DNA of 19,759 nucleotides from Boothiomyces macroporosus (lineage: Eukaryota; Chytridiomycota; Chytridiomycetes; Rhizophydiales; Terramycetaceae), in NCBI GenBank assembly GCA_027604185.1, contig JADGKB010000182.1, positions 1 through 19,759 of the forward strand, in the 5' to 3' direction. The notes beneath the pieces were generated by a model. That model searched no databases and was not told the DNA's origin. It saw only the letters and a list, made by a program, of their open reading frames with translations. Shown piece after piece: positions 1-19,759 of the stretch. Every line of letters starts with the position of its first letter. Position 1 is the stretch's first letter. Both the position numbers and the translations under genes were made by a program.

Positions 1-72
1 TCTTCTAGATATTTTGGTTGATCTCCACAAGAGTAATCTTCTAGATATTTTGGTTGATCTCCACAAGAGTAA
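1..72. repeat. 36-bp tandem repeat, two copies at left edge
   Basis: Two identical 36-bp units occupy 1-36 and 37-72, followed by a partial third start (tcttc). More copies may lie left of the window. The unit is 12 codons long. Read on the plus strand in frame 2 it is open and gives LLDILVDLHKSN twice, so the duplication preserves a reading frame. Confidence 0.9.
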
Positions 73-133: not shown

Positions 134-298
134 CGGTTTGATTTCAAATTGAAACTAGATGGGTATGAATACCCGCTCGCCAAAAGGTTTGTTTATACCA
201 GAGTTAATTTGGCCAGGATAGTAAGAGAATCAGTATGTTTAATTCTAGTGCTCCTGGAATATTGAACTCAGCTCCGAGTTATTCTCAAATCTTTATTT

Positions 299-1794
299 CT
301 ATTTGGTGATGTTAACTGAAGACAATATAGGAGGTTGGTCTCCAGGATTTCCAATGGCCTCTTGAGGAATATAGGATGGTACCTGGGCACTTGAATTCGA
401 ACCGTGATTTCCAAAAGGGGTTTGCACTGCAGACACTAATATATCTTTTGGTGATCCGATCTGTCCGTTAAACAAGATAGGCGGCATTTGAGGAGACTGC
501 ACAGTATTTGCTTCAGGTGCAATAGGAGACATTGGTCCTGAATATACGCTTTTGGATGAAGCCTTCTTTTTCAATGACGAATTGAAAGGTATTGCTTCAT
601 AAGCAACTTGTTTGCTAAAAGCATTTTCCGGTTGGTTAAAGGATTGCACTGGCGACGATGCTTCTCCAATTGGTGAACCAGAGTATTGTGAAATTTGGTT
701 ATTGTAAGGACTAGAGGTTCTATCGACAGAGTTAGGAGATGATTGCATGGATACCATTAGTGTCTGCGGTGCATTGTACATATTGTACGAAGGTGTGGAT
801 GGTGGAACACTATTCAAGGTAGAAATTAACTCTGAATCTTGTGTCTTCTTTCTGGCATTCATCATATACAGGAAACCTAGCCCAGCAATGATAACCACAC
901 CAAAAACGATACCACCGATATATAAGCCCATATTGCTGGAGCTGGTACTTGAGTTGCTTTGAGACGAACTTTGAGAGCCACCACCATTACTTCCACTACC
1001 ATCTCCTGAAGTTGAACCTGAATCTCCGTTTACAGTAACGCCATTAACAGAGGCTCCTGCATTGGAATTAGAAGAGGTTCCAGATGCCTGAGAATTAGAC
1101 GAGCTTGGAGTGCTTGAGGCAGTAGACCCAGATGCTTGAGTGATAGTTGGCTTGTTGTTTCCACTGTTAGCGCCATTGGTATTTCCAGAGCCAGGGGAGC
1201 CATTACCAGGGTTCGGATTATTATTGTTTGCGCCGTTTGTATTTCCAGAAGAGGAGCTTGAGCTGCCTCCTGAATTGCTTGGAGGTGGATTCGAGCCTCC
1301 TTGTCCGTTTGAACTACCCCCAGATGATCCTGGATTGGAAGGAGTAGTTGGTTGCGGTTTTGGTGGAGGTGGTGGAGGACTGGGACTAAAATTAATTGAC
1401 AACTCACGGATTGCATACATAGTTACTTCCTTGAATTGAGCATTCGGGACTGTTCCTTGAAACACTAAGTCCGCAAGCGAATGCTACTCCTTGGTTAATC
1501 GCATTATTCGAAGCAATAGTGTCAACATACACCTTTCGAGAAAAAAGATTGCATGTGAATGAGCTTGGATCATAGGTAAAGTGAGTGCAAGAAGGATTCG
1601 CCAGACAGCTATTTCCACAGTTTGTATTTCCCTCTTGAATGTGTTGGATTTGAATACCACCTGGGAAATCACAGTAACTTGTATACAGACCATCACCGTC
1701 ACTATATTAGCGAGAATTACAGTGTCATTTGAAACCCCTGGTAATTGATTTGGGCATAAATTCCCACTGCTAATAGCAGCAATTTCATTTCCAT
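299..1794 (-). CDS. PAN-domain, mucin-like single-pass membrane protein
   Basis: Three exons (1794-1721, 1701-1408, 1385-299) separated by introns of 19 and 22 nt join into 484 aa. Seen: an N-terminal signal peptide (MEMKLLLLAVGIYAQ; a second ATG lies at 1788), then a cysteine-rich segment at about residues 35-121 (Cys 35, 53, 57, 63, 75, 101, 112, 121). Its CDFPGG...NCGNSC...CTHFTYDP pattern fits a PAN/Apple domain, which in this family binds proteins or sugars. Then come a proline run, a Ser/Gly/Asn/Thr-rich stalk (about 128-274, probably O-glycosylated), one transmembrane helix (275-298, GLYIGGIVFGVVIIAGLGFL), a basic stop-transfer (NARKK) and a Ser/Pro-rich cytoplasmic tail of about 185 residues. 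The layout resembles fungal wall-stress sensors, but the tail matches nothing I recognise. Surface adhesion or sensing is inference. Without splicing, the first two exons look like unrelated frames. Confidence 0.8.
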
Positions 1795-2139
1795 TTTCTT
1801 TTGACAACCCTGAATCCGCCACTTGAAAGCTCAAAGAGATGAAATTCCCGAGTTTTTTAAATTAACATTCAGTCAATACTTAGGGACTATTATTTAGTGC
1901 AGATAAGAAGTTGAACGACTCTATGATGGTGAAATCAGGACAAGTGCACAGATCGTCACTAACCTTCAGATAATTATTCATCAATAAAATGATAGTAACT
2001 GTGAAATTGATAAACAATCTATATAATGTGAAATTGATAAACAATCTATATAATCTGGAAACCTACCAGTAACTTTTCGTGGGTTGCAAATGTGGTTTTG
2101 AAATATGGAATTTGCTGCGACTCGGAATTTCCGGAACAA
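1795..2139. other. Intergenic, upstream of the PAN gene and tRNA-Gly
   Basis: About 345 bp without a supported gene. It must hold the promoter of the minus-strand PAN gene and the upstream region of the plus-strand tRNA-Gly. It contains the 27-bp tandem duplication at 2000-2053; otherwise nothing is recognised. Confidence 0.6.
2000..2053. repeat. 27-bp perfect tandem duplication
   Basis: Two identical 27-bp AT-rich units (2000-2026 and 2027-2053), each beginning tgtgaaattgataaac, end 86 bp upstream of the tRNA-Gly gene. Read on the minus strand the unit gives YIDCLSISH, but no supported gene lies there. Confidence 0.9.
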
Positions 2140-2210
2140 GCGCCAGTGGTTTAGTGGTAAAATTCGTCGTTGCCATCGACGAGCCCCCGGTTCAATTCCG
2201 GGCTGGCGCA
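2140..2210 (+). tRNA. tRNA-Gly (anticodon GCC)
   Basis: A 71-nt cloverleaf: acceptor gcgccag/ctggcgc with A discriminator, anticodon stem cgtcg/cgacg around loop ttgccat (GCC at 2172-2174), T arm cccgg ttcaatt ccggg. No intron and no encoded CCA. It is identical over all 71 nt to the minus-strand copy at 16871-16941. A T-run follows directly. This is the only tRNA gene of the window not in a pair. Confidence 0.97.
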
Positions 2211-2216
2211 TTTTTT
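2211..2216 (+). terminator. Pol III terminator of tRNA-Gly
   Basis: Six T residues start at the base after the discriminator. Confidence 0.85.
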
Positions 2217-2665
2217 AGTTTTTATGTTCAATCAGAATGATATAATTTATTTTCCCCTTTTAAGCAAATTAATCAATTATTTATATTCATTTTCGAGAAA
2301 GTGTTAATCTATTCAACTTTGGAACAAATCCAATTACTTGAATTCACTTTATGAATATGTTCATTTGAATCTCTGGGAAGATACACTATTTTATCAACAT
2401 TCAAATACTAACCAAAGAATCCCTGTTAAATTCTATAGACCCCTGTTATAAAGGGAAAATGATAGAAATTCGTGTTTTCCAGCTCTGGCGTTTGTAATGC
2501 AATTCAAGATCTTCACAGTGGACATTTCAACGTTGAAATATCTTTAAAGTATACTTATTGCATAACCTAGAGTAGGTTCACATTGTAACATGCTATTGTA
2601 CAAAGTCATCTGATACAAACTTATGCATTATGCACTGTAGTTTAGTATAAAAGGACCTCTACCTT
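2217..2665. other. Gene-free stretch between tRNA-Gly and the gag remnant
   Basis: About 450 bp of AT-rich sequence with no reading frame, RNA gene or clear repeat that I can support. If the gag remnant came from a longer element, its downstream part (protease, reverse transcriptase) would be expected here, and I see no trace of it. Confidence 0.5.
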
Positions 2666-2926
2666 TCAATGACCTTTCTTATCGGGTATTAATAGTGGAG
2701 TATCTTTCTGGTTGAAGTATAAAAAGGGTTTCATATGGTTGATAAAGGTTCTAAAATTCCTCCTATCACCGTCGAATCGGTCAGGTAATGTCATTCTTGG
2801 AGACTTTTTCTTACCTTCTAGATCGGCTTTCTCTTTGCATGACTGAATTTTTAAATTTTCCATTTCATTTAACAAAAACTGAACTGCCTTTGACAAATTG
2901 TCTTTTTCTGAATCTTCAGAGGTCAT
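2666..2926 (-). pseudogene. Truncated Ty3/Gypsy-like retrotransposon gag
   Basis: An 86-codon frame starts with ATG at 2926. Residues 1-45 are charged and helix-prone. The segment TLPDRFDGDRRNFRTF followed by INHMKPFLYFN matches the start of the retrotransposon gag domain (pattern LPxxFDGdxxxFxxFlxqxxxyF), which packages element RNA in virus-like particles. A full gag is several hundred residues. This one stops where a capsid helix should continue, and no zinc knuckle, protease, reverse transcriptase or integrase follows. It lies between two tRNA loci, which fits the Pol III-gene targeting known for Ty3. It is most likely a dead 5' fragment, though a domesticated gag peptide cannot be excluded. 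Confidence 0.6.
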
Positions 2927-2983
2927 ATCGTGTTATCTGTTACAATGAATAAAGTTATACGTGTTTATTGATAATAACACGAT
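2927..2983. repeat. 10-bp perfect inverted repeat just 5' of the gag start
   Basis: Arms atcgtgttat (2927-2936) and ataacacgat (2974-2983) are perfect reverse complements with a 37-nt spacer. The left arm abuts the gag ATG, so it sits in the would-be leader of the element. It may be an RNA hairpin or part of a decayed LTR; the function is unknown. Confidence 0.7.
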
Positions 2984-3082
2984 CCCACAAATCACTAAGG
3001 GAAGTTCTTATGTGCCAAATTTCTGTAAATAATGGGTTGATTTATTTCAATTGAGATGCAACAATGTCAAATGACTGACATC

Positions 3083-3155
3083 GGCCGCCTGGCCCAATGG
3101 TTAAGGCGCTTGACTACGAATCAAGAGATTGCAGGTTCGACTCCTGCGGTGGTCG
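3083..3155 (+). tRNA. tRNA-Arg (anticodon ACG), first of a tRNA pair
   Basis: A 73-nt cloverleaf: acceptor ggccgcc/ggtggtc (two G-U pairs), loop ctacgaa with ACG at 3116-3118 (A34 expected to become inosine), T arm gcagg ttcgact cctgc, discriminator G. There is no intron. Only five bases (ttgat) separate it from the following tRNA-Thr, with no T-run between, so the two are probably one Pol III transcript. Confidence 0.96.
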
Positions 3156-3160
3156 TTGAT

Positions 3161-3233
3161 GCCCTTTTAGCTCAGTGGTAGTAGCGCTTGCCTAGTAAGC
3201 AAGAGGTCCTCTGTTCGATCCAGGGAAAGGGCA
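3161..3233 (+). tRNA. tRNA-Thr (anticodon AGT), second of a tRNA pair
   Basis: A 73-nt cloverleaf: acceptor gcccttt/aaagggc, TA at positions 8-9, D stem gctc, AGT at 3194-3196, T arm ctctg ttcgatc caggg with one U-G pair, discriminator A. It carries the only terminator of the pair. Confidence 0.95.
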
Positions 3234-3239
3234 TTTTTT
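3234..3239 (+). terminator. Pol III terminator of the Arg-Thr tRNA pair
   Basis: Six T residues directly follow the tRNA-Thr discriminator. No T4 run exists between the two tRNAs. Confidence 0.85.
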
Positions 3240-3308
3240 GCTTTTTGGATCATCTTGAATGGAGTGTGAGAACATACTATTAAAGTACAGGTGAATGTAC
3301 AAAAATAT

Positions 3309-4505
3309 CTACATCAATTTATTAGAGAGCTGGAAATGCTGTTGTGATGTGTTTTTGTCTGGTTTTGGCAGAGAGTCAACATTGATAAATTTGAAAAGCT
3401 CTTGGACAATATTTCCATGTTGGTAATGCAGAGCCTGTCTTATAGCATAATTGTTTAATGCTGAAGGATCCACTCTTTTATCAGATAAAAGAAGACGTAC
3501 CACCTCCAAGTGCCCATTCTCTGAAGCATTTCTTATAGCGTAATTTTCATCTGCAGTAGGATCAACTCGAGGATCTTGAAGTAATAGTTGAACAACACCA
3601 AATTTCCCATTTTTTGAAGCTTTTCTGATCGCAAAATTATCCAGTGCTGCAGGATCTATTCTTTTGTCATTCAATAACAATTTCACCACTTCTTCTTTTC
3701 CTTCACAAGCTGCTATTCGCAGGGCATAGCTCTGTTCTGCCGCTGGATTTACCCTTGAATCAAGTAATAGCATTTGCACCACTTTTGTGTAGCCATTTTT
3801 CGCTGCTTTCTTTATTGCTTGGTTGTTATCAGCCCCAGGATCAATTCTAGGATCTTTGAGAAGTAGTTGCACAACCGCCAAGTATCCTTGTGAACAAGCC
3901 GATCTAATAGGATAGTTGTCTATAGCAGTAGGATCCACTCTATAATCTCGTAGAAGCATCTCTAGTATTTCTATTCGATCGAACCAAGAGGCTTGGCATA
4001 TTCCTATATTGTAATCTGCTGAAGGATCAAACCTACAGTCGCATAAAAGCTGTTTGAATAATTCTGTCTTTCCTGAAACTATTGCTTGGCGAAGAATCAT
4101 ATTGTAATCTTTTGGAGACATTTCAGTAAGTTCGGGTATTTTGCCAACAATCGACAGAGCTAATTCTGGACTGAACTCTGCATCATTTCTAATATAGTTT
4201 ATAAGGGCTTTCTTTAGATCTTCAAAGCCCTCCTTCTGACAAATAAGCTGTTGTAGTAGGAATCCAAGCTGGTGATGTAGAACAAAAGCATAAATGTCTT
4301 TCGTTATAGAATTGCGAGACAGAATGAGGTATCTAGACAAGTCTTCTTTGGTCCTTCCCAATTCAATCGTCTCTTTGTAAGCTGCGAATGTCATCACTGG
4401 TCGTTTTCGCAGCTTGATATCCTTGCACGCATATTGTAATTCGTAATATTCCTTTAAATTCAAATGAGTAGAGACTATCGTCAATTCGTTTAAAATGCTG
4501 AGCAT
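3309..4505 (-). CDS. Ankyrin-repeat protein (31-residue repeats)
   Basis: A single uninterrupted frame of 398 aa from ATG at 4505 to TAG/TAA-type stop at 3309-3311. The first 130 residues have no motif I know. From about residue 130 come at least seven repeats of about 31 residues with the core RVDPxAxxNYAIRxASxxG followed by xxxVVxLLLxD. This is the ankyrin helix-turn-helix type abundant in amoebae, chytrids and giant viruses, and it mediates protein binding. No signal peptide or membrane segment is seen. The repeats differ at many positions, so they are not recent copies. The partner and role are unknown. It points away from the NADPH oxidase gene across about 1 kb. I saw no need for an intron, although a 21-nt stop-free intron would be invisible in an unaligned repeat protein. 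Confidence 0.85.
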   Translation of the reverse strand: MLSILNELTIVSTHLNLKEYYELQYACKDIKLRKRPVMTFAAYKETIELGRTKEDLSRYLILSRNSITKDIYAFVLHHQLGFLLQQLICQKEGFEDLKKALINYIRNDAEFSPELALSIVGKIPELTEMSPKDYNMILRQAIVSGKTELFKQLLCDCRFDPSADYNIGICQASWFDRIEILEMLLRDYRVDPTAIDNYPIRSACSQGYLAVVQLLLKDPRIDPGADNNQAIKKAAKNGYTKVVQMLLLDSRVNPAAEQSYALRIAACEGKEEVVKLLLNDKRIDPAALDNFAIRKASKNGKFGVVQLLLQDPRVDPTADENYAIRNASENGHLEVVRLLLSDKRVDPSALNNYAIRQALHYQHGNIVQELFKFINVDSLPKPDKNTSQQHFQLSNKLM

Positions 4506-4882
4506 TTCTTTTTACGAAAAGTTTTGGTTTTTTCCGACATTTAAACTTTGAGTGGAGGTCACGCCGATTGTTCCAGACAAGTCAAGATTTCTTTAGAAGA
4601 ATTTAAAAGTAGAAAAAACTGGCAATTGGATAGTGTTGTAATATCGGATATTAAAGAATTTTAGCGTCAAATGCTTTGCTGGTTGAAATAACTCTGTTTT
4701 CCTCTTAGTCTGGATGAACCTGTTGCTCATCGAAATTTATCCGCTCTGATCACGTGATAAATGTCAATGTTTGCAATTCTAGAAATAACTAGTAGACTTG
4801 CGCTTTGTGGAGCTGTTCTTTATAGCAATCCAGTCACAAATAGGTTGTTTTCCTAGGTTTGAATTTCAATTGCTTAAGCAAC

Positions 4883-4962
4883 GGCAGTATCTCAAAGATT
4901 CTCAAAATACTAGATTTTCAATGGCAGTATCTCAAAGATGATTGAAATACTTGATGTTGGCT
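4883..4962. repeat. 40-bp imperfect tandem repeat
   Basis: Two units start with an identical 17-bp block (ggcagtatctcaaagat at 4883-4899 and 4923-4939) exactly 40 bp apart. The remaining 23 bp are partly conserved (aaatact.gat.tt). Confidence 0.75.
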
Positions 4963-4969
4963 AGATTTA

Positions 4970-4988
4970 CATTGAAGTATCTTCAATG
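4970..4988. promoter_or_regulatory. Perfect 8-bp palindrome with TAT centre
   Basis: CATTGAAG (4970-4977), TAT, CTTCAATG (4981-4988). It lies just beyond the 40-bp repeat and shares with it the core GTATCT. It could bind a dimeric regulator; this is inference only. Confidence 0.35.
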
Positions 4989-5492
4989 ACAAGCTTGTCT
5001 CTTGGCTTAATTGTACAGCCAGAATTCAAGCATGCTTTGAATCAGATTGAAGCCTCACTAGTATGAAGTGAATAATTCACGTAAAAAACAGATATACTAA
5101 GCGGAATGATCTGGAAACTCCTTTAATCTCGTAGATTAATAACATTCTTTGAAATAGAGAGCTGTAGTGGTTTATGAATGAAAATTTAATATGTTTGCTG
5201 GCCTCTGACCAAAATGCTTTCTTGGTAAGCCAAAGTAAAATATCTTTTCAAACACCTATTGGTCAATGTACATCAGATAGTGGGGGTTTCATTTGTCCGT
5301 AGCCGTGTTGCTTTGCTCTTTGAATGCTTTTTTGATAGCAAATTCTTACGAAATGCAACCCCTTTGTTGAAACCTGAAACAATGACTTTATGTTTCATTG
5401 GCTCTCAGAATTTTCGTTACTAATTTTCATTGAATGGGCGCTCCTGGGCTACTGTGGCGAAATGGGCTCCACCCCAGTATAAAACTGAAAAC

Positions 5493-7166
5493 ATGATGAC
5501 GGAAAACTTGTTTGAAAAAATGGTCGACACCTCCGTGCACTTAGGGAGATACCACAATGCTCCAAGAAAGTCTGGCATGTTTGTAAATTTTAGAAATTGG
5601 ATGGTTAACGAAGGTTAGTCTAATATAACATAGGCCGTGCCAAAATAGTATTTTGGTTATTTGTAATTGCCCAGCTTCTTTACTTTGCACAATCATACTA
5701 TGTTTTATGGACTTCACCTTCAGTCAAAACATTCAGAAGTGTCCTTGGGCAGGGTTTACCAATTGCTCGTGGAGCTGCCAATATTATTAATCTCAACTGT
5801 GCAATTCTCCTCTTCACCGTCTGTAGAAATTTGATATCCGGATTAAGAGGAACTTTTTTGGGCAGAATTATCCCGTTTGACAAGAACATCACTTTCCACA
5901 TTTGGATTGCCTATTTTATAGTCTTCTGGACTATTGTTCATGTTATCGCCCATTACTTTAATTACTTGAATGTCGCAATTGTTTTTGAAAAGGTTACTTC
6001 ATGGCAACTGGCAATGATTTCTGGTCCAGGATGGACAGGGCAAGTTATTTCAGTCTCTTTCTTCCTTATGGTTACCTCTGCACTAGAAGCTGTAAGGAGA
6101 AAGTATTTCGAAATGTTTTGGTTTACTCACCACTTGTTTATTGTCTTCTTTGGCGCTTTGTTGATGCACGGCTCATTCTGCTTCATCAAAGGTGATACTG
6201 GTGACCCATGCAGAGGTGGCCCAACATTCTGGAAATGGTGGGTTGCTTCTGGTGTTGCATACTTTTTAGAAAGGGTTTATAGGGAATTCCGTGGCCGTGA
6301 AAAGACTATCGTTTCTAAAGTTGTTCAACATCCATCCAAGGTAGTTGAAGTTCAATTCAAAAAATCTACATTCAAGGCAAAGGCTGGCCAATATATATTT
6401 ATTTGCTGCCCAGAAATTAGCATTTGGGAATGGCATCCGTTTACTCTCACTTCTTCTCCATACGAAGACTTTGTGTCTCTTCATATTCGTGTAGTTGGTG
6501 ACTGGACCACAAAGTTTGCTCAGAGACTTGGATGTAGATTTGGTGGGCCAGAAGAAGCTGGCATGTCTCCTCCTAAATCCCTTCCGTTTGTTATGATTGA
6601 TGGTGGTTTCGGTTCCGCTTCAGAAGATGTATTCGACTATGAAGCTGCTATCTTGGTCGGCGCTGGTATTGGTGTTACTCCTTTTGCTTCTATTTTGAAA
6701 ACTATTTGGTACAGATTGCAAAACAGAGAAGGAACAATTGCCTTGAGAAAAGTATATTTTGTTTGGACGTGTAGAGACAAGGAGGTAATTCAATCATTAA
6801 TCATAGGCATTCGAATGGTTCCAGGATTTGCTGGTTACGCTTGAAGAAGAAAATATTGATGATTTCCTCGAAATTCACTCATATCTAACCGGAAAATTGA
6901 AAATTAATGAAGTCAAGAATATTTGTATTAATGATGGAGAAGATGGCAAAGACGCCATTACCGGATTGCGTGCTCGTACTCACTTTGGGAGACCAAACTG
7001 GGATGAAATCTTTTCTGGTGTCAGAAACAAGCATCCTGGTGCTGACGTTGGTGTATTTTTCTGTGGACCAAAGGTTCTCTCTCAAGCACTACACAAAGCA
7101 TGTAACAAATGGACTGAAGCTACTCCAACAGGTACTCGTTTCTATTATGGAAAAGAAAACTTTTAA
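5493..7166 (+). CDS. nox: NADPH oxidase catalytic subunit, fungal NoxA/NoxB type
   Basis: Three exons (5493-5613, 5634-6784, 6807-7166) with introns of 20 and 22 nt give 543 aa. The enzyme moves electrons from NADPH through FAD and two hemes across the membrane to make superoxide. Seen: six membrane segments, heme ligands His129 and His143 (14 apart) and His206 and His219 (13 apart), FAD motif HPFTLTS at 308-314, NADPH motif GAGIGVTPF at 383-391, the WTCRD and FCGP blocks, and the family C-terminus GKENF. There are no EF hands, as in NoxA, NoxB and gp91phox. ATG at 5493 is the first usable start: the frame runs back to a TAA at 5421-5423 without another ATG, and the family has only a short N-terminus before the conserved NEG. 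A tiny upstream exon remains possible. Regulation in fungi is by NoxR/Rac; partners are not in the window. Confidence 0.95.
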
Positions 7167-7270
7167 TCATGTAAATAAATATGATACTGAAATTACTTGT
7201 TTGTTGAAAGAGACGCGTGATTTGTTTAACTTTCAAAATGGTAAATTTCGAGTAATGATAGTCAAAGGGC

Positions 7271-7902
7271 ATGACGGTTAAGGATGCGCTGAAGCTATGG
7301 GAAGAAAAGCACCCAGGTCAACCAATAGCAGAAGCGACGGTTGTAAAATTAATGATGATGCAACCCTTTATCGTAAAGATGGATGCATCTCTAGCAGCAC
7401 TTACGAAAGTAGAGTAATCGATGATTAAACAAGACAACTGTCATTAAGTACAAATCAAATAGAGAAAATTAGCAACCTGAACGGCTTGTCAAACCTGAGA
7501 ATCTTGTCACTTGGTAGAAATTCTATAAAGAAAATTGAAGGTTTAGAAGCTGTCGCAGACACATTGCAGGAGCTGTGGATATCTTACAATATGCTGGAAA
7601 AGTTGAACGGTACTAGGTAACTGACATAGGTGTGGAATGCTGCAAGAAACTCAAAGTACTGTACGCAAGCAACAACAAAATCAAAGATTGGGCAGGTTTA
7701 GCTCCGGCGGTAAATATTATTAATTCAGATGGGTCTCCCTGTTGAGGACATTTTATTTTCTGGTAATCCAGTTGAGGAAAAGGCAACCGCTGATGGTTCA
7801 TGGATTCCAGAAGTTACGAAGCGATTCCCAACTGCCAAAAAGCTGGACGGAAAGACTCTGATTAGACAAGATGCTGTAGAAGAAGAAAAACCACCAGAAT
7901 AA
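7271..7902 (+). CDS. DNAL1: Axonemal dynein light chain 1 (leucine-rich repeat)
   Basis: Four exons (7271-7413, 7434-7609, 7630-7709, 7729-7902) with introns of 20, 20 and 19 nt give 190 aa, the same length as the human protein. Light chain 1 binds the microtubule-binding region of an outer-arm dynein heavy chain and tunes flagellar beating. Seen: WEEK near residue 10, KMDASL, then LRRs with the family hallmarks KLSLSTN-like ([12 protein letters not shown]), [41 protein letters not shown] and FSGNP, and an acidic end. All three junctions are fixed by continuous alignment with known light chain 1 proteins. It starts 104 bp after NADPH oxidase and stops 30 bp before the next gene. Its presence implies a flagellated (zoosporic) life stage. 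Confidence 0.95.
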
Positions 7903-7932
7903 AAACGAAATTTTTCAACTTTTTAAAATCCA

Positions 7933-8553
7933 ATGCTGCTTACTAGAGTCAGACCCACAATTGTAAACTACATTGGAAATAGACTACGAGCGCCGATTAC
8001 TTCCAGGTTCAACTTTGATACATATAAATTGGTGCGCCAACTGGAGAGACAAAACTTTACAAGAGGACAGGCGGTTGCTTTAATGCGTACAATCAACGCC
8101 TTTCTAGTCGATTCTACTCTTTCGGTGAAATCAGACTTGGTTTCAGAAACGCAACTGGAAAATGAATTATACCTATCCAAAACCAATTTACAGGATTTGC
8201 GGAACGAACTATCTTCTCTTCGCCAGAATGACTCTGCAACTCTTAAATCTGAAGCAGAGGCGATCCAGCGCGAAGTGGAAAGTTTGGATTTAAAGTTTTC
8301 TGAGCAACTCATTTCGTTAAAAACCGATATCAACATGGATATAAGCGGACATCGAGCAGAATACAAGGAACTGTCTACTCAAATTGATTCTAGAATTCAG
8401 GATATACACCACAAGCTAGTAATCCGTTTGGCAGACCTGAAAACGAATATTGAAACAATGAAAGTTGAGTTAACCACCAATATCACGTGGATGACAGTGA
8501 TTACTATTGGATCGATGATGCTGTTTGACTGGCTGTTACAAGAGCAGGAATAA
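7933..8553 (+). CDS. Fmp32/CCDC90-MCUR1 family mitochondrial inner-membrane protein (DUF1640)
   Basis: An uninterrupted frame of 206 aa, about the length of yeast Fmp32. Seen: a basic, acid-free N-terminus suited to mitochondrial import (MLLTRVRPTIVNYIGNRLR), the family core FDTYKLVRQLE followed by xxFTRGQAVALM at about 28-55, a long coiled coil (about 70-175) and one C-terminal membrane helix (about 184-200, WMTVITIGSMMLFDWLL). Family members sit in the inner membrane; yeast Fmp32 is linked to respiratory-complex assembly and the animal homologue MCUR1 to the calcium uniporter. Which applies here is unknown. It has no introns, unlike both neighbours, and is spaced 30 bp and 89 bp from them. 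Confidence 0.85.
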   Translation: MLLTRVRPTIVNYIGNRLRAPITSRFNFDTYKLVRQLERQNFTRGQAVALMRTINAFLVDSTLSVKSDLVSETQLENELYLSKTNLQDLRNELSSLRQNDSATLKSEAEAIQREVESLDLKFSEQLISLKTDINMDISGHRAEYKELSTQIDSRIQDIHHKLVIRLADLKTNIETMKVELTTNITWMTVITIGSMMLFDWLLQEQE

Positions 8554-8642
8554 ACCGCCCTGTTAATAAACTGTTATTTCAATACTCTTATCGTAATTGA
8601 TCAAACTTGTATGAGGAAAACTTTTTCCAATCCAGACTTGAA

Positions 8643-11600: not shown

Positions 11601-12289
11601 AGGGCATATAGCGCATTGTTTGGCCAGATATTTGGTCCAAGTACTGAAGTACAAAAGAACAATCCAAACAAATCTACTCCGGTATTCAAACATCCCAGCT
11701 TGGTCAACTTTTACATCAACTGTCCAGACTTGGCCAAAGAATGGTGTCAAAGTTTCTTGGTGCTGGTGACCATTCACGACACTAAAACTTGCCAGGCTGT
11801 TATTACAATTCTCAATAGGATATTCCATATTATTATAAAAATATCAGAGTATCACGCATTTCTCGGGACAGATCTATTAGTTGCTGCGCTTAAAGTTGTA
11901 CACGACGGCTATTATGCGTCTTGTCATACAGATGCGTTCCACCTGGTAACCCATATATTTACCAACTTTCCTCAACAAACACTTCCGTTTACTACATGCG
12001 CATCTAATGGAATTCCTGTTGACAAACTTATGGTAATATTCATTAACAGTAGCAATTTGAAAAAGATCTGCATTCAGCAACCTCCCTCAAAACCAAACAC
12101 AATCTAGTGAAATCATTCTTTAGTTCATTCAAGGGCGCAGAAGTCGCTACGTGGGGAAAGAAAGAGCAACAGTTTATGGTGAATCACCGAGAAAAGAAGC
12201 TGCTGCAAAAGCCAAAACTGGAAACTAATCGATCTGATATACTATTAACCGAAGAGTCTGCTCAACTAGATTTATTATTTGGACAATAA
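8643..12289 (+). CDS. XPO5: Exportin-5 / Msn5-like karyopherin
   Basis: Nine exons (8643-9358, 9380-9926, 9949-10074, 10094-10399, 10420-10640, 10661-10952, 10975-11516, 11537-12032, 12053-12289) joined over eight introns of 19-22 nt give 1160 aa; human exportin-5 has 1204. It is a RanGTP-dependent HEAT-repeat exporter that carries structured RNAs (pre-miRNA, tRNA) or phosphoproteins out of the nucleus. Seen: an importin-beta-like N-terminus (REKVVVVFVEYVKRNWPLNW, matching the exportin-5 KREWPQHWPDM region), YKVLKSLNNVLVNIG, YLEFMMYQALHPSL matching exportin-5 YLESFLAFTTHPS, FFYFVTLE, and QNYLDTILQPYISEF. Each intron restores this alignment. ATG at 8643 is the first in frame before the conserved region. 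The C-terminal tail is basic and unaligned. The gene is convergent with capping protein beta, 20 bp apart. Confidence 0.88.
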
Positions 12290-12309
12290 ATTGCTGTAGA
12301 AAGTTTTAT

Positions 12310-13218
12310 TCAATTTTTGTTTCTTTCTTGTAATCTTCCAATCATTTGAGCATGAAGAGATGCCTGGTTCCTGACTGTTTTCAAATCTGTGAGTGATCGC
12401 AAATCATTCAAAATATCCTTTGTCTTTCCAAAATAGATTTCTTGGATACTAGACCGCATTTTGATTTCCATATCTTCGACAAGTCTTCCCATATTGTGCA
12501 CATGAGACATTGGGTTGTCTAATGGATATTCCATCTCAGCCTAGGTTAAGAAATAAAACACTTGACGAGTAAGCGATCCTCCTAAATCGATTTCTGGGGC
12601 ATCTGCGGTAGGCGGTGTGATTAATTGTAATATGACAGTGGATGTAATCTTGTAAACTGCAGATTTCTTGGCTGGAGTTACTTGAACCACATGAATAGAG
12701 TCCCATGATCCAGTATTAGTACCTTCAGTATTTTCTATGTCAATTGAAATAGTACTCTTTTGGATTAAGATTGCACCCGCAAACCCTTCATCCAAATCCC
12801 ATAAATATACAGAAGACAGTCCGCCACCAAAATACCTGTATTAGTTTCTCTTACAATTCACGATATGTGTCGAATGCATCGTTTGCTGCCTGTTCTAATT
12901 GGGCAAGTGCTGGACTTGGCTTTACGCCATCGGTCTTTGGTTGAAATTCTCCTGACCATGGGGACCTATATTAAGAGGAAATACCGATAAGACTCTCCAT
13001 CTCTGTTGTAATCGCAAATGAGGAACGGCTTTCCAGTAAGCTCGCAAGTGAGGGATGAAAGTTGGTGATCGACCGACGAAAGCAAATCTTCAGACAAGTC
13101 TGGTGAAATTTGCACCAGTTTTGAGAGATTATGTTGCATCTTTGAAGGCGGGAGTCTTCGGAGTAAATCGAGTGCGCAGTCAAGAGGATCTTCCTATTGT
13201 TTACTTGTCGAGTACCAT
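12310..13218 (-). CDS. CAP2: F-actin capping protein subunit beta
   Basis: Five exons (13218-13216, 13193-12985, 12965-12855, 12835-12562, 12540-12310) with introns of 22, 19, 19 and 21 nt give 275 aa; human CAPZB has 277. With the alpha subunit it caps actin barbed ends in patches and the cortex. Hallmarks: [75 protein letters not shown] and [10 protein letters not shown]. The first coding exon is the ATG alone: after it a GT-AG intron leads to [11 protein letters not shown], matching the human start with two residues fewer. A longer 5' exon upstream is possible but not needed. This is the first gene of a tightly packed minus-strand group. Confidence 0.95.
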
Positions 13219-13293
13219 TTTTCAAGATGAGTTGCAAAAGTTTCAACTGCGCGAAAGGTCAAAAGCAAACCTGTTAGACATTTATTATGCTGA

Positions 13294-14778
13294 TTACGCA
13301 GTAAATTCATCGCAATTATCAATCAAACTTTTTTGACTAAAATCACCAGATGCAATTTTGCCAATTGAAGCAGGGTCCAGTACAGCAACAGATATTCTAC
13401 GTTTCCAATACGGCGGTATTAAATTTGCAATACATAAATAATCACTGATTATTGTCAATATCTCGTACGGAAATTGGACAAGGGCTAACGCGCGTATTTC
13501 TGATAGCAGCTTTCCAGCCAGAGTCCTCTGGTGTTTCTTGTTCCTACCCAAAATACCTTGAATAGTAGCATCGGTACCAAAAGTATCCAATTCGTTGTAA
13601 AAATGTATTGGGTTCAGCTCTGTAATATAATAGTTGTTTTGCAATGCAGAAATAACTGGTGACAGATCACAAGGTTGAACATCAAAAAAAGCCAATGTTC
13701 TTAGCTGCGATTTGGTTACCAGCTTTGCAATATATGGAGTAATGTTGGAAACATCACTCACAATCGTTGCGGTCAAATCCAACTCTTCTATAAACGGATT
13801 CTGAGCTATAGCATCAACAAATAATTCCATTGTTTGCTTTGTAAATGTACAGCCAAACAAATCCAAGGAAATGAAATTTGATTTTTGCTTCAAGATTTTG
13901 GCGTAGTGTGCCATGTGTACACTCGTCCAATCAAAGGTAAAGAAGCCAAAAAACTGTACATGCTTGAAAGAGTTGAATATATCTATAAAATTTATCGTTG
14001 CAGCCTCCCCTATCGTAATTTGATCCACTTTCAGTCTTTTAATCCGTTTGTTATTCTGAACAGCATCAAATATACGAGAAATACTGTTTCTAATTCCACT
14101 TGAAAGAACATTAATCCCTACTAGTGAAGAACTATTCCTAATCATTGAGACTATATGATCAGTGTCTCTATCAGTCAGTCCACAGTTTTCAATAAAATAT
14201 CGCTGAAAATTGTGATTCTGTGCCAGTCCTGAGCACATTAATCCAATCCATGTTTCGTTTGGTACAAAACAATCAATAATCTTTAGTATATGGATGTTGA
14301 CAGTGTTCCACGGAACTGTTGACATCAGTAGCCAAGCTGCTTCACCAGTCAGCGCCTCCAAAGTAACTTGTTGGAAGCTATACAACGATAAGAGATTTCT
14401 GCAATTATCCACACCATCAGCTTCTAATCCAAGTATCATCAAATTCTTCTTGTGTGATCGCTCTAACGAGGCAGCGATAAAGTGATATTCTGGTTCGTCC
14501 AAGGTGAGTTCGATACATATTTCACTGCATAATATAAACTTTGAGAAATCAGTGTAGAACTCTAAAAGAAATTCCCTACTAGCATCAATGATTTTGAGTT
14601 CAGAGTCCAGGAATACGTGCCATACATCCACCTGCAAGCTCTCCAGAATGCTGTAGGATATAAAGTCGGAGGTCTTGGGAGAAACGAAATTTCCCGTTGC
14701 TAGAGATCTGAATCGATTGTACGAGTCGATAAATTCCCGATATTTGTGTCCATATTTCTCGCTTAACAATTGCAGCAT
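13294..14778 (-). CDS. Leucine-rich-repeat (RNI-like) protein with C-terminal F-box-like segment
   Basis: An uninterrupted frame of 494 aa from ATG at 14778. The middle (about residues 200-400) contains irregular LRRs of the ribonuclease-inhibitor type, such as GLTDRDTDHIVSMIRNSSSL, SNFISLDLFGCTFTKQTMEL and NPFIEELDLTATIVSD. Near the C-terminus (about 433-450) the segment LVQFPYEILTIISDYL resembles an F-box first helix (LPxEILxxIxxYL), which would bind Skp1. F-box proteins normally carry the box N-terminal to the LRRs, so this reading is tentative. The N-terminal 190 residues are unrecognised. No signal peptide or membrane helix. Its start is 31 bp from the stop of lipase 1, and its stop 75 bp before the capping protein start. 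Alternatively it is a lineage-specific LRR protein without ubiquitin function. Confidence 0.75.
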   Translation of the reverse strand: MLQLLSEKYGHKYREFIDSYNRFRSLATGNFVSPKTSDFISYSILESLQVDVWHVFLDSELKIIDASREFLLEFYTDFSKFILCSEICIELTLDEPEYHFIAASLERSHKKNLMILGLEADGVDNCRNLLSLYSFQQVTLEALTGEAAWLLMSTVPWNTVNIHILKIIDCFVPNETWIGLMCSGLAQNHNFQRYFIENCGLTDRDTDHIVSMIRNSSSLVGINVLSSGIRNSISRIFDAVQNNKRIKRLKVDQITIGEAATINFIDIFNSFKHVQFFGFFTFDWTSVHMAHYAKILKQKSNFISLDLFGCTFTKQTMELFVDAIAQNPFIEELDLTATIVSDVSNITPYIAKLVTKSQLRTLAFFDVQPCDLSPVISALQNNYYITELNPIHFYNELDTFGTDATIQGILGRNKKHQRTLAGKLLSEIRALALVQFPYEILTIISDYLCIANLIPPYWKRRISVAVLDPASIGKIASGDFSQKSLIDNCDEFTA

Positions 14779-14809
14779 TTACAAATTGGAAAAAAGCAAA
14801 GTTTATTGT

Positions 14810-15736
14810 TTAGCATTTGGCGCTCAACCATCCATAATAATCACTATGGCGAGCTGCGTTCAGGGAAAACAAATCGTTAAGGCAAGATGGACTTTCACCA
14901 GAGTTGGCTTTTACTGCACAAGCGGTAGTGCTTCCATCATCATTCAGTTCCCATTGTTGTTTAAAATGATAGTATCCCATTGCATTCAACGGCAAGTGAA
15001 CAACAGGATCACCACGTCTAGCTACTCTATATATTCTATCTACGAATGGAACTTGATCCACGTAGTTTGCCCACGCATCGTTTCCGACTCTAAAGTTAGC
15101 CTTTTGTTACCTAGGTTGACCATATGTATATAAGGAAATTCTATCTTGCATGCCAAACACATTTTGGAAATCCACTGCTGCAAATGATGCAATCGCGCCA
15201 CCAAGTGAATGTCCAGTAAATACAATCTGGTAGTTTGGCTTATTTTGAGCCAATTGGTTGGTTGCAATCAAGACATCATCTCTAATTGACCCGTATACTT
15301 CTTCGAACCCTGCGTGTACCTTTAAATTTTCAGGAATAGGGGCATTTGCAGGACTGGCAATGTTGAGAGGATATCGAGATTGCCAATCTGAATCAGTTTG
15401 AGCAAATTCAAGATCTTGAAGAGCGCCTTCAAGATTATCAGTCCCTCTGAAAGCGATAACAATGGTTTGGAGATTGTCATTGTAGCCTACATAGGAAGCT
15501 GCAGCAGAATCAGATGAATTAATGGTACTAACAATCTGAGTAGACGAAAGTGCACCGCTGCAACGGATTCCACAATTGAATGACCCTGTTTGCCAGATTT
15601 GATTACAATCTAGGTTAAAGCAGTATGTACATGAAGCGGCAGAGTATTGAATGAAAGTTGGGAAATTGGATACTGGTGATGAGGCGGTAGGTACGCCATT
15701 AGCAAAAGCAGCAAGTAAAGAAACAAAGTTTATCAT
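14810..15736 (-). CDS. Secreted class-3 (Rhizomucor-type) triacylglycerol lipase, paralogue 1
   Basis: Three exons (15736-15631, 15609-15111, 15089-14810) and two 21-nt introns give 294 aa. It should hydrolyse ester bonds of fats outside the cell. Seen: signal peptide MINFVSLLAAFANGVPTA, the fungal lipase start YSAASYC, oxyanion loop FRGT (89-92), nucleophile Ser170 in GHSLGG, Asp229 in GDPVVHLP and His283 in RHSDYYGW, plus many cysteines likely in disulfides. The first intron is a multiple of three with no stop, so an unspliced reading adds seven false residues (CTYCFNL-type) beside the YC motif. The intron is identified because the paralogue at 18572 has a frame-breaking intron at the same codon. 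The second intron, in YGQP(AG|A)VG, is absent from the paralogue. Confidence 0.93.
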
Positions 15737-15940
15737 ATCTAACACGATATTGTATGAACTCTACAGTGTGAATTTATACTCTCTCGTCCAACCCGTCCGT
15801 GATTCTTATTGTCCAAGCTTTAGTAATGTGCCAGACACGATCTATCCGTTAGTATTTACTATATTTCAGACTTGAATACAATCTACATGTTGTTGTGAGA
15901 GGCAAAGATTGGTTTCATTTGATATTTTATGGCTATTGTG

Positions 15941-15986
15941 AAATACTATTAATTGCAAAGTGATCCATTTGTAAATAATAGTATTT
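15941..15986. repeat. 11-bp perfect inverted repeat (potential hairpin)
   Basis: aaatactatta (15941-15951) and taatagtattt (15976-15986), with a 24-nt loop, lie about 200 bp upstream of the lipase 1 start. It could be a cruciform, a small mobile-element trace or chance in AT-rich DNA. Confidence 0.55.
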
Positions 15987-16025
15987 TGACAATGGTACTG
16001 TTCCTGTGATGATCCGAGCGATCAA

Positions 16026-16040
16026 GGCACAAAGTGTGCC
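16026..16040. repeat. 6-bp hairpin with 3-nt loop
   Basis: ggcaca-aag-tgtgcc is a perfect GC-containing stem in otherwise AT-rich DNA. No T-run or RNA gene context explains it. Confidence 0.45.
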
Positions 16041-16792
16041 GCAACGTAAAGGATCAAGATCACCTTTTATAGGGAAAAAAAGCAGCTTAGATGAACCAAC
16101 AACCAATTTACCTTCAATCTTTCATCTGCCTTGTATAATGTGAGCGTTGGAATATTGAATATAGGCGTAAAAATTAATTATCTATTGATCATTAAGCTTT
16201 CGGCTGTATGCGGGCGCGAATGACATGTTACACAGATGTCAAAATAATTTGTTTATGCGACCCTAACCCACAATGACACTTGTGATCTATTGCGGCAGAA
16301 CTAATATGGAATAATGAAGTCATTAATTCCACTTGTACATCCTTAACCGTAGCCCCCAAAAGAATTGGACCTAAAGATCATGAAACATTTCCAATATAAA
16401 AGCGACTCATCAAAAGGAAATTATATATTTTCTCCCATTAATGGTCTTGAACTTATTGTGGGAAATGTAATTTATGTGGATCTCCTTTTCTTACGCATCT
16501 GTAGTTACTGATCAGTAAATATTAGGTGTGCACACGATCTATTGTCTCAACTATACTTTCGTGTAACTTTATCAATCTGGATTCCATAAGCAGCATGTTG
16601 AATCATTTGTAACTAGTGTGATTGGTAATTCTTTCACATTGAACGACAGCAACATTACTCACTCTTTTATGTTGGAATAATCGCGGTTATCTTTTTTGGA
16701 TGAAATGTGTATCTCACATTAAAAAATTTCACACCACAATATTCAACAATTCTTTGCAAATATTCTAAACCAAAAAATACTCAACCACCAAC

Positions 16793-16797
16793 AAAAA
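16793..16797 (-). terminator. Pol III terminator of the Gly-Gly tRNA pair
   Basis: Five A on the plus strand (T5 in the transcript) directly follow the 3' end of tRNA-Gly(TCC). Confidence 0.8.
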
Positions 16798-16868
16798 TGC
16801 AACAGCCGGGAATCGAACCCGGGGCGCACGCTTGGAAGGCGAGCATGTTACCTCTACACTACTGTTGC
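16798..16868 (-). tRNA. tRNA-Gly (anticodon TCC), second of an abutting pair
   Basis: A 71-nt cloverleaf on the minus strand: acceptor gcaacag/ctgttgc, discriminator A, TCC anticodon (plus-strand 16834-16836) in loop cttccaa, T arm with GGTTCGATTCC. The anticodon stem ctcgc/gcgtg has one T-T mismatch where the usual eukaryotic gene has a T-A pair. Only two bases (16869-16870) separate it from the upstream tRNA-Gly(GCC). Confidence 0.94.
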
Positions 16869-16870
16869 TC

Positions 16871-16941
16871 TGCGCCAGCCCGGAATTGAACCGGGGGCTC
16901 GTCGATGGCAACGACGAATTTTACCACTAAACCACTGGCGC
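16871..16941 (-). tRNA. tRNA-Gly (anticodon GCC), first of an abutting pair
   Basis: Identical over 71 nt to the plus-strand copy at 2140-2210; GCC anticodon at plus-strand 16907-16909. There is no T-run before the next tRNA, which starts two bases after its discriminator, so both tRNAs must be cut from one precursor. Confidence 0.97.
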
Positions 16942-16966
16942 TGGTGGCTCTTTTGCCTTGCCTAGG

Positions 16967-16975
16967 TATATAAAT
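16967..16975 (-). promoter_or_regulatory. TATA-like element upstream of the Gly-Gly tRNA pair
   Basis: ATTTATATA on the minus strand lies 26-34 bp upstream of the first mature tRNA base. Upstream TATA boxes assist Pol III in some fungi such as fission yeast. The role here is inferred from position only. Confidence 0.35.
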
Positions 16976-17248
16976 CATAAAATACTTATTTTTTGAGATT
17001 CAATACAACGTCGATTAATCTCTTTCAAAGAAATTATGAGTCTGACTGGTGATGCATTTGTATTATTAATTGTCCGTCTTTTAGCATCCTGAACTTTATA
17101 CTTGTTGGGTATTGGATATTTGTTTCTGACATTCTGTTATACGGTGAATCCTGCAACGCAATAGCTATTGGCAAAGAACATACAAAATACAGTAATAACT
17201 GAAGGTGTCAGCTATAATTCAATTAAGAATCCAATTACGAGAAAGTAC
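16976..17248. other. Spacer between the two tRNA pairs
   Basis: About 270 bp without a supported gene. It separates the terminator of the His-Gln pair from the TATA-like element of the Gly-Gly pair. Nothing else recognised. Confidence 0.5.
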
Positions 17249-17255
17249 AAAAAAA
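17249..17255 (-). terminator. Pol III terminator of the His-Gln tRNA pair
   Basis: A run of A on the plus strand (T7 in the transcript) directly follows the tRNA-Gln discriminator. Confidence 0.85.
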
Positions 17256-17328
17256 AGGTCCCACCGAGATTCGAACTCGGGTCACCAGATTCAAAGTCTG
17301 GTGTGATAACCAACTACACTATGGAACC
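17256..17328 (-). tRNA. tRNA-Gln (anticodon TTG), second of an abutting pair
   Basis: A 73-nt cloverleaf on the minus strand: acceptor ggttcca/tgggacc (one U-G pair), discriminator U as in yeast tRNA-Gln, anticodon loop ctttgaa (TTG at plus-strand 17292-17294), T arm ccgag ttcgaat ctcgg. Two bases (17329-17330) separate it from tRNA-His. Confidence 0.96.
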
Positions 17329-17330
17329 AT

Positions 17331-17401
17331 TGCCATCAGCAGGAATCGAACCTGCGTCGCAGCGGTCACAACGCTGAGTACTGCCACTATACTATGATGG
17401 C
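17331..17401 (-). tRNA. tRNA-His (anticodon GTG), first of an abutting pair
   Basis: A 71-nt cloverleaf on the minus strand: acceptor gccatca/tgatggc, discriminator A as usual for eukaryotic tRNA-His, loop ttgtgac (GTG at plus-strand 17367-17369), T arm with GGTTCGATTCC. The extra G-1 would be added after 5' processing. No terminator separates it from tRNA-Gln. Confidence 0.95.
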
Positions 17402-18571
17402 TGTTGGACTGCAATTTTACTAATCATACATATTGTTTTTCAGTTTTATCTTAACCATTTCCAATAGACGTGATTGTATATCTCCCCTTTAAGCATTAAT
17501 TTAACTTATTGTGAATATTACTGTTCAAATTTTAATGTTGTGCTGTAAGGGTATTAGTACAAATAGGGGTACTAAACAGTTCAATCACGGGAATAAGCTC
17601 ATTTTACTCCTTCGAATGGATGTTTATTTTAGAACTTGACCAATTGACTCTCTTACCTGAATGTGGTAGTATATGTTGGTTGATGTACCCAGTCGTTTGA
17701 ATCTTTAAGATCATCGTTTTTGGTTAATCTACTATCCAAATTGGAAATTTTCACCATACTGTCTTTGGTGATCTCTATGATTACCCTACTATTGTAGGAA
17801 ACGTTCCCAATCTGACAGCCATTGTTTTACGGAAAGGCTACAATTATCCAATAATCGGTGATGTTATTCATGATCCTTATCATAGCAGTATAAACATATG
17901 GTAATAGTTGTTACTTTAAAGCGGAAATGCAAACGTGCAGTTAACGTGCGGCCGAATCTATCAATGTTTCGACGGTCCGTTGATCCGGCTGGTCTTGTAC
18001 GTCCAGAACAACCTGAGCAAAGATGGTCTTTTTCACTTCATTAAGGGGTTTGTTCACAAGACCAAAATAAAAGGCACGGCCACTAAAAGAAATAAGCTTT
18101 TGCGTATTTTCGATCCCTTTTGAAAGAACAATCCATATTCAGATGTATTCTCCTTGAAGAATGGTTTTACTGTTAGAAGTTTTCCCTTTGGCCGACTTTC
18201 AAGGTGATCTGTTGTCGCCCGCTCAACAGGTCATTTACCGCATTAGGTTAAGGGACAAGATAACATCACAAGAGCATTCCATATTGAATATAACTGTAAT
18301 TTAATTGCTGTTTGGTTGATCAAACATCAAAACGCGTAGTTCATGACTACCTATATCGTAAGGTTGAAACAAGCAGTCGGTGCATACAAAAGATTATTTT
18401 GACCGAATCCTTTCAGCTGGTAACTTTATCTACAACAACAGACAATCTTTTGTACAGCACGCTTTCATAAAGACGCTATGGTTACTTATGACCTCTTAGC
18501 GTTAGAAATTTGTGCCGAAGGTTGGTATAAATTATGAGCAATCTGATTATCTTTATACTACCTAGAAAGAA
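17402..18571. other. Gene-poor stretch between tRNA-His and lipase 2
   Basis: About 1.17 kb with no supported gene. A GC-richer segment at about 17935-18123 is open on both strands: 62 codons on plus, and about 65 codons on minus ending ...TVETLIDSAAR before TAA. The minus reading weakly resembles the LIDSGA active-site region of a retrotransposon protease. Neither has a convincing start or family. The last part must contain the lipase 2 promoter. Confidence 0.4.
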
Positions 18572-19497
18572 ATGTTTGCTTCTCTTCTTGTTGCTAGCGG
18601 TTTGTCTCTCCCAACCGCTGATGTTACATCCACCTTTCCTACCTTTGTCCAATACTCTGCTGCTGCATGTACATATTATCTTAACTGTAGATTGCAACCA
18701 AATTTGGACCTCTGGAGCATTTAACTGTGGTATTAGATGCAGTGGCAAACTTTCATCAACTCAAATTATTGTTGCAGCAAATGACAGTGCTACCACTGGT
18801 GCAGGATTCGTTGGCGTTAATCCAGACTTGCAAACTATTGTTATATCATTCCGAGGAACTTCCAATCCAACTGCGGATGGAGAAGATTTAGATTTCTTCA
18901 AGTCAAACGCAGACTTTCAATCTGCGAAACCTATCGACGTTCCAAATCCTGCAAATTCACCTTTGCCTACTTCTTTGCAAATTCACACTGGATTCAAAAA
19001 CACTTATGAAGGTGTCCGTCAAGCTATTCTCCCTGCCGCCGCTAATCTTGCTGCACAATATCCAAGCTACCAAATTGTCTTTACTGGACACTCACTTGGA
19101 GGAGCTTTGGCTGGATTGGCTGCTGTAGATTTCCAAAATGTATATGGCTATGATGATCGAATTTCCTTGTACACTTATGGTCAACCTCGAATTGGGGACA
19201 CAAACTGGGCAAGATATGTTGATGGTCTTTCAATTGCAAATCGCTTTTATAGGGTGGCAAGAGTTGGTGATCCAGGTATATAATCTTTTTAACATAGTTG
19301 TTCATTTACCATACAACTGGATGGGATTCCAACACTTTAGGCACCAATATGAAATCAATGATGATGGAACCACAACTGCTTGTTCAATTGATAGCAACTC
19401 TGGTGAAAGTTCTTCTTGCCTGAATGATGGCGGAGAATTCAATGTAGCAAGACACAGCGATTACTATGGATGGTTAAACGGACAATCAACTTGTTGA
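18572..19497 (+). CDS. Secreted class-3 triacylglycerol lipase, paralogue 2
   Basis: Three exons (18572-18668, 18691-19275, 19298-19497) with two 22-nt introns give 293 aa. Seen: a short hydrophobic signal region (MFASLLVASGLSLPTADVTS), YSAAAYC, FRGT, nucleophile Ser167 in GHSLGG, Asp226 in GDPVVHLP and His280 in RHSDYYGW. It is clearly a paralogue of the lipase at 14810-15736, on the opposite strand about 2.8 kb away, with long shared blocks (YQIVFTGHSLGGA, DRISLYTYGQPR, NDDG.TTAC). ATG at 18572 gives a protein that aligns with lipase 1 from the signal peptide on; an earlier in-frame start is not needed. The first intron splits the same Tyr codon (T|AT) as in lipase 1. The second splits the GDP-V codon and has no counterpart there. 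Confidence 0.93.
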
Positions 19498-19639
19498 AAA
19501 ATTCCAATAAACTAGATTTTTTGCAAAGCGTTTTGAGTAAATCAATGAAAAGTAACAATTGTTTTACTTTTATTTGCTGCTTGACTAGCAAATGAGATGA
19601 AATGTGTGGTTTTGAACTAAGGTCAAATGCAAATCATAT

Positions 19640-19759
19640 TCTACTGATACGATGAAACGCAGTGGTGGTTGATTGCTACCCGGATTGGGTAAAGCTGTAC
19701 AGTGTTGGTCACACCAATCTTAAAGAGCAGGTTTCATAATTTGTATTTTGGCCAGCAGC
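19640..19759 (-). CDS. Possible 3' end of a minus-strand gene, cut by the window edge
   Basis: From the right edge the minus strand is open for 15 codons (AAGQNTNYETCSLRL). A 20-nt GT-AG intron (19695-19714, GTGTGACC...GTACAG) then joins in phase 0 to LYPIRVAINHHCVSSYQ and a TAG at 19641-19643. Without splicing the frame meets TGA. The intron fits the size class of the window, but its TAA motif is missing and no family is recognised. It would converge with lipase 2, about 140 bp apart. Confidence 0.3.

Follow-up and report, generated by a model that had tools for sequence, protein, structure and literature searches.

The stretch analysed here, referred to as the window throughout, comprises 19,759 nt of Boothiomyces macroporosus (contig JADGKB010000182.1, positions 1-19,759, forward strand), a member of the Chytridiomycota, order Rhizophydiales, family Terramycetaceae. 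Seven of its genes, encoding a PAN-domain membrane protein, an NADPH oxidase, axonemal dynein light chain 1 (LC1), Exportin-5, F-actin capping protein beta (CapZ-beta) and two class 3 lipases, are interrupted by 25 putative introns of about 20 nt. An earlier note on this DNA had described 23 of them and assigned the sequence to a fungus-like flagellated organism, identified here as a chytrid fungus. All 23 segments were found at the coordinates it gave, bounded by GT and AG on the coding strand, and their reported lengths (five of 19 nt, seven of 20 nt, four of 21 nt and seven of 22 nt) were reproduced. Its total was too low, as two introns (7241-7261 and 12735-12755) had been missed, but its statement that every intron in the window measures 19-22 nt holds for all 25 that were found. 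With these removed the seven genes are open to their stop codons with no internal stops, and the proteins are of family length, as the note had maintained.

Short introns in seven genes

The Exportin-5 gene (8643-12289, forward strand) contains eight introns of 19-22 nt (9359-9379, 9927-9948, 10075-10093, 10400-10419, 10641-10660, 10953-10974, 11517-11536 and 12033-12052), the removal of which yields a protein of 1160 aa matching the Exportin-5 Pfam family in one stretch with 211.7 bits. Five introns were assigned to the CapZ-beta gene (12310-13218, reverse strand): 12541-12561 and 12735-12755 (21 nt each), 12836-12854 and 12966-12984 (19 nt each) and 13194-13215 (22 nt), the last directly after the start codon. 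The second of these, the 25th in our inventory, is in frame, stop-free and holds a branch-like TTGAC; it was initially read as exon, and the protein therefore carried seven surplus residues relative to its homologues. Its excision raised the F_actin_cap_B score from 300.6 to 304.9 bits and gave a protein of 268 aa (267-268 aa in Batrachochytrium and Spizellomyces), with the match covering profile positions 1-237 of 237.

The LC1 gene (7238-7902, forward strand) holds four introns, at 7241-7261 (21 nt), 7414-7433 (20 nt), 7610-7629 (20 nt) and 7710-7728 (19 nt). The first, the 24th in our inventory, runs from GT to AG with TAAT before the AG and lies directly after the ATG (7238-7240). Removing it joins this ATG to SKGMTVKD and restores the N-terminus MSKGM of Globomyces LC1; five of the eight aligned chytrid LC1 proteins start with MSKG, three of those with MSKGM. 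The protein is colinear with chytrid LC1 and with solved LC1 structures, bar a single residue absent four codons beyond the 7710-7728 junction, an absence that we took for a real deletion. In two genes, LC1 (7238-7261) and CapZ-beta (13194-13218), the start codon is thus immediately followed by an intron.

The NADPH-oxidase gene (5493-7166, forward strand) has introns at 5614-5633 (20 nt) and 6785-6806 (22 nt), with junctions after residues 39 and 423 that both fall within ungapped alignment to the cytochrome b-245 heavy chain. Comparison of LC1, CapZ and NADPH oxidase with solved homologues revealed no gaps at the junctions checked.

The two lipase genes served as an internal control. Lipase 1 (14810-15736, reverse strand; Lipase_3, 109.7 bits) has introns at 15090-15110 and 15610-15630 (21 nt each), and lipase 2 (18572-19497, forward strand; Lipase_3, 104.8 bits) at 18669-18690 and 19276-19297 (22 nt each). 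One site is common to both, 15610-15630 corresponding to 18669-18690. The other two are private: 15090-15110 lies opposite an exact 21-nt gap in lipase 2, and 19276-19297 opposite an exact 22-nt gap in lipase 1, in both cases with continuous coding sequence in the paralogue. At those sites the alignments argue strongly against sequencing error or gene decay. The two genes are diverged, lie on opposite strands, separated by a tRNA cluster, and would have gained or lost introns after their duplication.

The PAN-domain gene (299-1794, reverse strand; PAN_1, 30.9 bits on the N-terminal piece), for which the position of the start codon was taken from the gene finder, carries introns 1386-1407 (22 nt) and 1702-1720 (19 nt), identified from reading frame and splice signals only. 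For the remaining 23 of the 25 introns there is evidence beyond frame (Exportin-5, eight; CapZ, five; LC1, four; lipases, four; NADPH oxidase, two). When ten genes were scanned for overlooked in-frame introns (18, 21 or 24 nt), one weak candidate, of 18 nt in the PAN gene, emerged and was not accepted. No intron was detected in three window genes, encoding an ankyrin protein (3309-4511), a CCDC90-like protein (7934-8553) and a protein of unknown function (13294-14778).

The window also contains seven tRNA genes in two clusters (2140-3234 and 16798-17401), with tRNA-Gly(GCC) once in each, an 88-codon open reading frame resembling by eye a retrotransposon gag fragment (2666-2932, reverse strand) and, at the very start of the contig (1-72), a 36-base direct repeat in two identical head-to-tail copies.

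Splice signals, spliceosomal genes and intron lengths genome-wide

The short introns share sequence features that chance segments lack. The decoys were the window's 416 remaining GT..AG segments of this size (19-22 nt), all clear of the introns; the intron set compared with them numbered 24, without 12735-12755. GTA at the 5' end together with a YTAAY motif just before the AG occurred in 14 of the 24 introns and in 1 of the 416 decoys (Fisher p 3e-19), and YTAAY alone in 16 and 7, respectively. In a larger set of 191 introns of 17-26 nt, with the branch site defined as the best-scoring one and its offset limited to 1-6 nt, the branch A occupied intron position 14, 15 or 16 in 185; in 175, the last intron base followed it at a distance of 5 or 6 nt. 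In 190 introns the mean spacing was 4.9 nt between donor position +6 and the branch 5-mer, and 2.5 nt, 69% of them pyrimidines, between this 5-mer and the AG. The donor consensus is GTAATT, preceded by G at exon position -1 in 51% of the 190; the full GTAAGT was present in just 7 donors, and 52 deviated from it at a single one of positions +3 to +6. The consensus does not match RTATCCTT, the 5' site of the minor U12-type introns.

The genome encodes components that would recognize these signals. A U1 snRNA gene scored 68.8 bits, slightly below the Rfam cut-off of 69.5, with the 5' end ATACTTACCTGG, to which the donor sites are predicted to be complementary. U2 snRNA is present in two copies with GTAGTA intact, with which the branch motif would be able to pair. 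The two U2 genes (L003 and L004) have diverged (142.2 and 135.4 bits), and in L004 some stem positions are unpaired. Genes for U4 snRNA and for U6 snRNA, the latter carrying ACAGAGA, were also found. SF1 matched its family over the cut-off after removal of short introns, and U2AF65, previously in pieces of 230.7 and 31.1 bits, reached 342.7 bits, over the cut-off, once five introns of 19-21 nt were removed. The genes for all four homologues that the earlier note singled out for comparison with other fungi (U1, U2, U2AF65 and SF1) are thus present in the genome.

The same length band emerged from the whole assembly (GCA_027604185.1; 15,203,306 bases in 216 contigs). The pattern GTAA..YTAATNNTAG matched 1198 times at 19-22 nt, against 59 for the reversed pattern, with no comparable difference at 15-18 nt (29 against 48), 23-26 nt (45 against 48) or 27-57 nt (399 against 405). 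A gene finder given a flat length prior of 8-400 nt and no signal other than GT..AG, and applied to 20 segments of 10 kb outside the window, placed 78 of its 225 introns at 19-22 nt; with five decoy dinucleotide pairs the corresponding numbers were 7, 6, 11, 16 and 9 among 194-206. The 78 calls began with GTA in 88% and had TAAY within 6 nt of the AG in 78%. When splice signals were learned and lengths kept flat (14-400 nt), 163 of 230 introns measured 19-22 nt and 10 had other lengths below 40 nt, five of them 23-26 nt. In a spectrum of spacings between scored donor and acceptor signals over 249 kb including the window, at the loosest of three thresholds, the surplus was 17-77 pairs per length at 19-22 nt and exceeded 2.4 at no other length between 15 and 30; between 31 and 200 nt the single outlier was 166 nt (5 matches), at the strictest threshold only. 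A peak at 12-13 nt in the first spectrum was reasoned to be an artefact of GTA overlapping TAAY, and later spectra began at 14. The codon-only, flat-prior and signal-aware gene models fused neighbours and miscalled long introns among the window genes and were kept only for length histograms set against decoys.

Extrapolation gives a rough total of between ~12,000 introns (162 in 200 kb) and ~18,000 (from the pattern fraction, 12/185). Ten of 33 intron-bearing models, picked because they were recognised, each matched at least one Pfam family over the cut-off, and three of the ten hold a longer candidate: one of 24 nt in SF1, which by elimination carries the in-frame stop from the family search, one of 28 nt close to the start of ribosomal protein L22e, and one of 40 nt in topoisomerase II (L034, 2308-2347). 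The last divides exactly, by eye, into GT..AG units of 21 and 19 nt with no exon between, which might be removed one after the other by recursive (zero-exon) splicing. Of the earlier note's expectation of a genome-wide set of about 20 nt, the 19-22 nt peak was confirmed, with the reservation that a few candidates of 23-28 nt make it nearly all rather than all introns. By these measures nearly all putative introns occupy one narrow band across the genome, as hyper-short intron sets do near 15-25 nt.

In-frame stops were found in 23 of 27 introns of 21 nt, against 22 of 35 (19 nt), 39 of 65 (20 nt) and 5 of 11 (22 nt). Stops within introns serve as a translational control in Paramecium. Such a role was dropped for the surplus seen here, which is at least in part an ascertainment effect because the gene finder cannot detect 21-mers that lack a stop. 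In contigs C2, C3, C20 and C10 of the assembly (G000) the same introns or matches repeat at constant offsets of 42,596, 21,618, 45,067 and 53,656 bases, suggesting large tandem duplications or uncollapsed haplotypes.

A proposed fixed splicing geometry and its rivals

We consider it highly probable (about 0.93) that these segments are spliceosomal introns of the U2 type and that, throughout the B. macroporosus genome, such introns have shrunk to a minimum length that hardly varies. This reading is based on sequence anatomy, genome-wide spacing, and the snRNA and factor genes, from which splicing in vivo, the roles of the factors and the shrinkage itself are inferred; the spliceosomal minimisation envisaged in the earlier note survives the tests run. 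We propose that ordinary U2-type splicing may have been compressed into a fixed geometry. U1 would base-pair with 5' sites resembling GTAAT; the YTAAY branch site, with its A 14-16 nt from the 5' end, would be occupied first by SF1 and afterwards by U2; and the 3' AG would follow 5-6 nt past this A, so that two narrowly bounded spacings add up to the intron length (14-16 + 5-6 = 19-22). Because only ~2.5 nt separate the branch motif from the AG, there would be no space for a polypyrimidine tract, and U2AF65, though present, would therefore be unable to bind as it normally does. Proximity would probably guide recognition of the AG in the second step.

Several observations weigh against this reading. 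The RF00020 model did not locate U5 snRNA, nor did it match in any control genome, and a search for the U5 loop pattern gave 8 matches against 11 in the control. Three window introns match the learned splice signals weakly (13194-13215, -0.36; 5614-5633, 0.40; 9927-9948, 0.57). The flat-prior gene finder placed 117 of its 225 calls at 40-400 nt, where splice signals were at background (GTA 29-33%, TAAY 22-29%), and the signal-aware version still made 57 such calls out of 230; seven of these long calls inside the window, to which this check was confined, clash with homology-based models or fuse adjacent genes. The gene finder is also blind to in-frame stop-free introns and under-counts those of 18, 21 and 24 nt, which leaves the pattern counts unaffected, and the short introns were themselves the source of the signals used in the spacing spectrum.

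The deposited annotation bears on the first rival, namely that the true introns are longer and conventional and the tiny ones a by-product of the choice of GT..AG pairs. The deposited B. macroporosus Exportin-5 (HK103_002395, 1118 aa) has one 167-nt intron (9927-10093) where we read two tiny introns and a 126-nt exon, and lacks 42 residues as a result. This protein, and some long-intron calls of the gene finder, speak for longer introns. The same protein is nevertheless identical, letter for letter, to our model at six of the eight tiny introns and uses them itself; its Pfam match drops to 178.3 bits in two stretches, making the skipped exon worth 33 bits; and the genome shows neither a pattern surplus at 23-26 or 27-57 nt nor signals above background in the long calls. 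We regard the longer introns as very improbable. Since the deposited Exportin-5 uses six of the eight, tiny introns are already silently present in public annotation.

Sequencing or assembly indels, or the frameshifts of decayed pseudogenes, bridged by chance GT..AG pairs, constitute a second and even less credible rival. Chance pairs of this size are abundant, as the 416 decoys illustrate, but they lack the shared YTAAY and GTA signals (p 3e-19), and neither indels nor decay would account for the genome-wide excess (1198 against 59), the exact paralogue gaps or the full-length family matches. Error or pseudogene origin, which the earlier note had named as the outcome that would overturn its proposal, is contradicted on each of these grounds. 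DNA-level insertions excised before transcription, like the internal eliminated sequences of ciliates, or ribosome bypass would suit the small and uniform size of the segments, yet their GT..AG ends, a branch site predicted to pair with the host's own U2, the presence of U1, U2, U4, U6, SF1 and U2AF65 genes and the fungal nature of the host make them equally hard to credit.

If the introns have indeed shrunk as U2-type spliceosomal introns, the loss of 42 residues from Exportin-5 implies that gene prediction may harm other proteins of this species too. The named best relatives for CapZ and LC1 were Globomyces, Kappamyces, Gorgonomyces and other chytrids (among the matches listed), with no Boothiomyces entry among the best 120 of 3391 CapZ matches or the best 120 of 1477 LC1 matches, which suggests that both proteins are damaged in the deposited Boothiomyces annotation. 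The annotated CapZ of Globomyces sp. JEL0801 has eight surplus residues exactly at the site of the Boothiomyces intron 12836-12854, which, back-translated by hand in this single case, would fit an intron of 24 nt (GTA..AG) that the annotation translated. No clean intron could be derived for a second odd stretch in the same protein (P0002).

These fungi are free-living and saprotrophic. We would give even odds to a wider proposition: a whole clade of free-living Rhizophydiales would have a spliceosome tuned to introns of about 19-27 nt, two fixed spacings would sharply bound intron length in both directions, U2AF65 would have been retained without a polypyrimidine tract to bind, and public proteomes of the group would be widely wrong as gene finders skip or read through such introns.

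Comparison with known short-intron systems

As far as our literature search reached, a 19-22 nt intron set appears to be new to Fungi, microsporidian lengths lying outside the comparison. Among the matches listed, no title or abstract start dealt with hyper-short introns in chytrids, most subscription journals being outside the search, and none of the literature naming Boothiomyces with intron concerned hyper-short introns, judged by title. The size range is no record among eukaryotes, and Boothiomyces would join a small set of hyper-short-intron lineages. If so, it would represent an independent origin of such introns, in Fungi, in a genome with an estimated 12,000-18,000 introns that has kept SF1 and U2AF65. 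Its spacings of 14-16 and 5-6 nt would be direct figures for the minimum spliceosomal substrate and raise the question of how U2AF works without a polypyrimidine tract.

Introns of the Bigelowiella nucleomorph span 18-21 nt. Data for the comparison of known systems come from the sources cited and from PMC4435813, PMC11649378 and PMC13391722. Bigelowiella natans has nearly the same size range, with an 18-nt intron cited (PMC12316389), in a relict algal nucleus as opposed to the main nucleus of a fungus. Among fungi, the spliceosomal introns of Cryptococcus neoformans have a mean of 63 bp, threefold the Boothiomyces length, and introns of this type were labelled 'relatively short' in a survey of 644 genomes (PMC8476143). 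Ultra-short spliceosomal introns also occur in Paramecium, where they are longer, at ~25 nt, and belong to another lineage (PMC5014332). The type B introns of Trichomonas (23-25 nt) are likewise longer and from a different lineage, and coexist with long introns (PMC12316389). Stentor coeruleus shares with Boothiomyces a near-constant intron length, and snRNAs and homologues of SF1 and U2AF have been reported for it, although its introns are shorter (15-16 nt) and the host is a ciliate (PMC9505925). The mikrocytid Mikrocytos mackini resembles Boothiomyces in its very narrow length range and conserved intron sequence, but is an obligate parasite with 224 introns of 16-17 nt and a strongly reduced spliceosome (PMC10245619), whereas Boothiomyces is estimated to have 12,000-18,000 introns and retains both SF1 and U2AF65.

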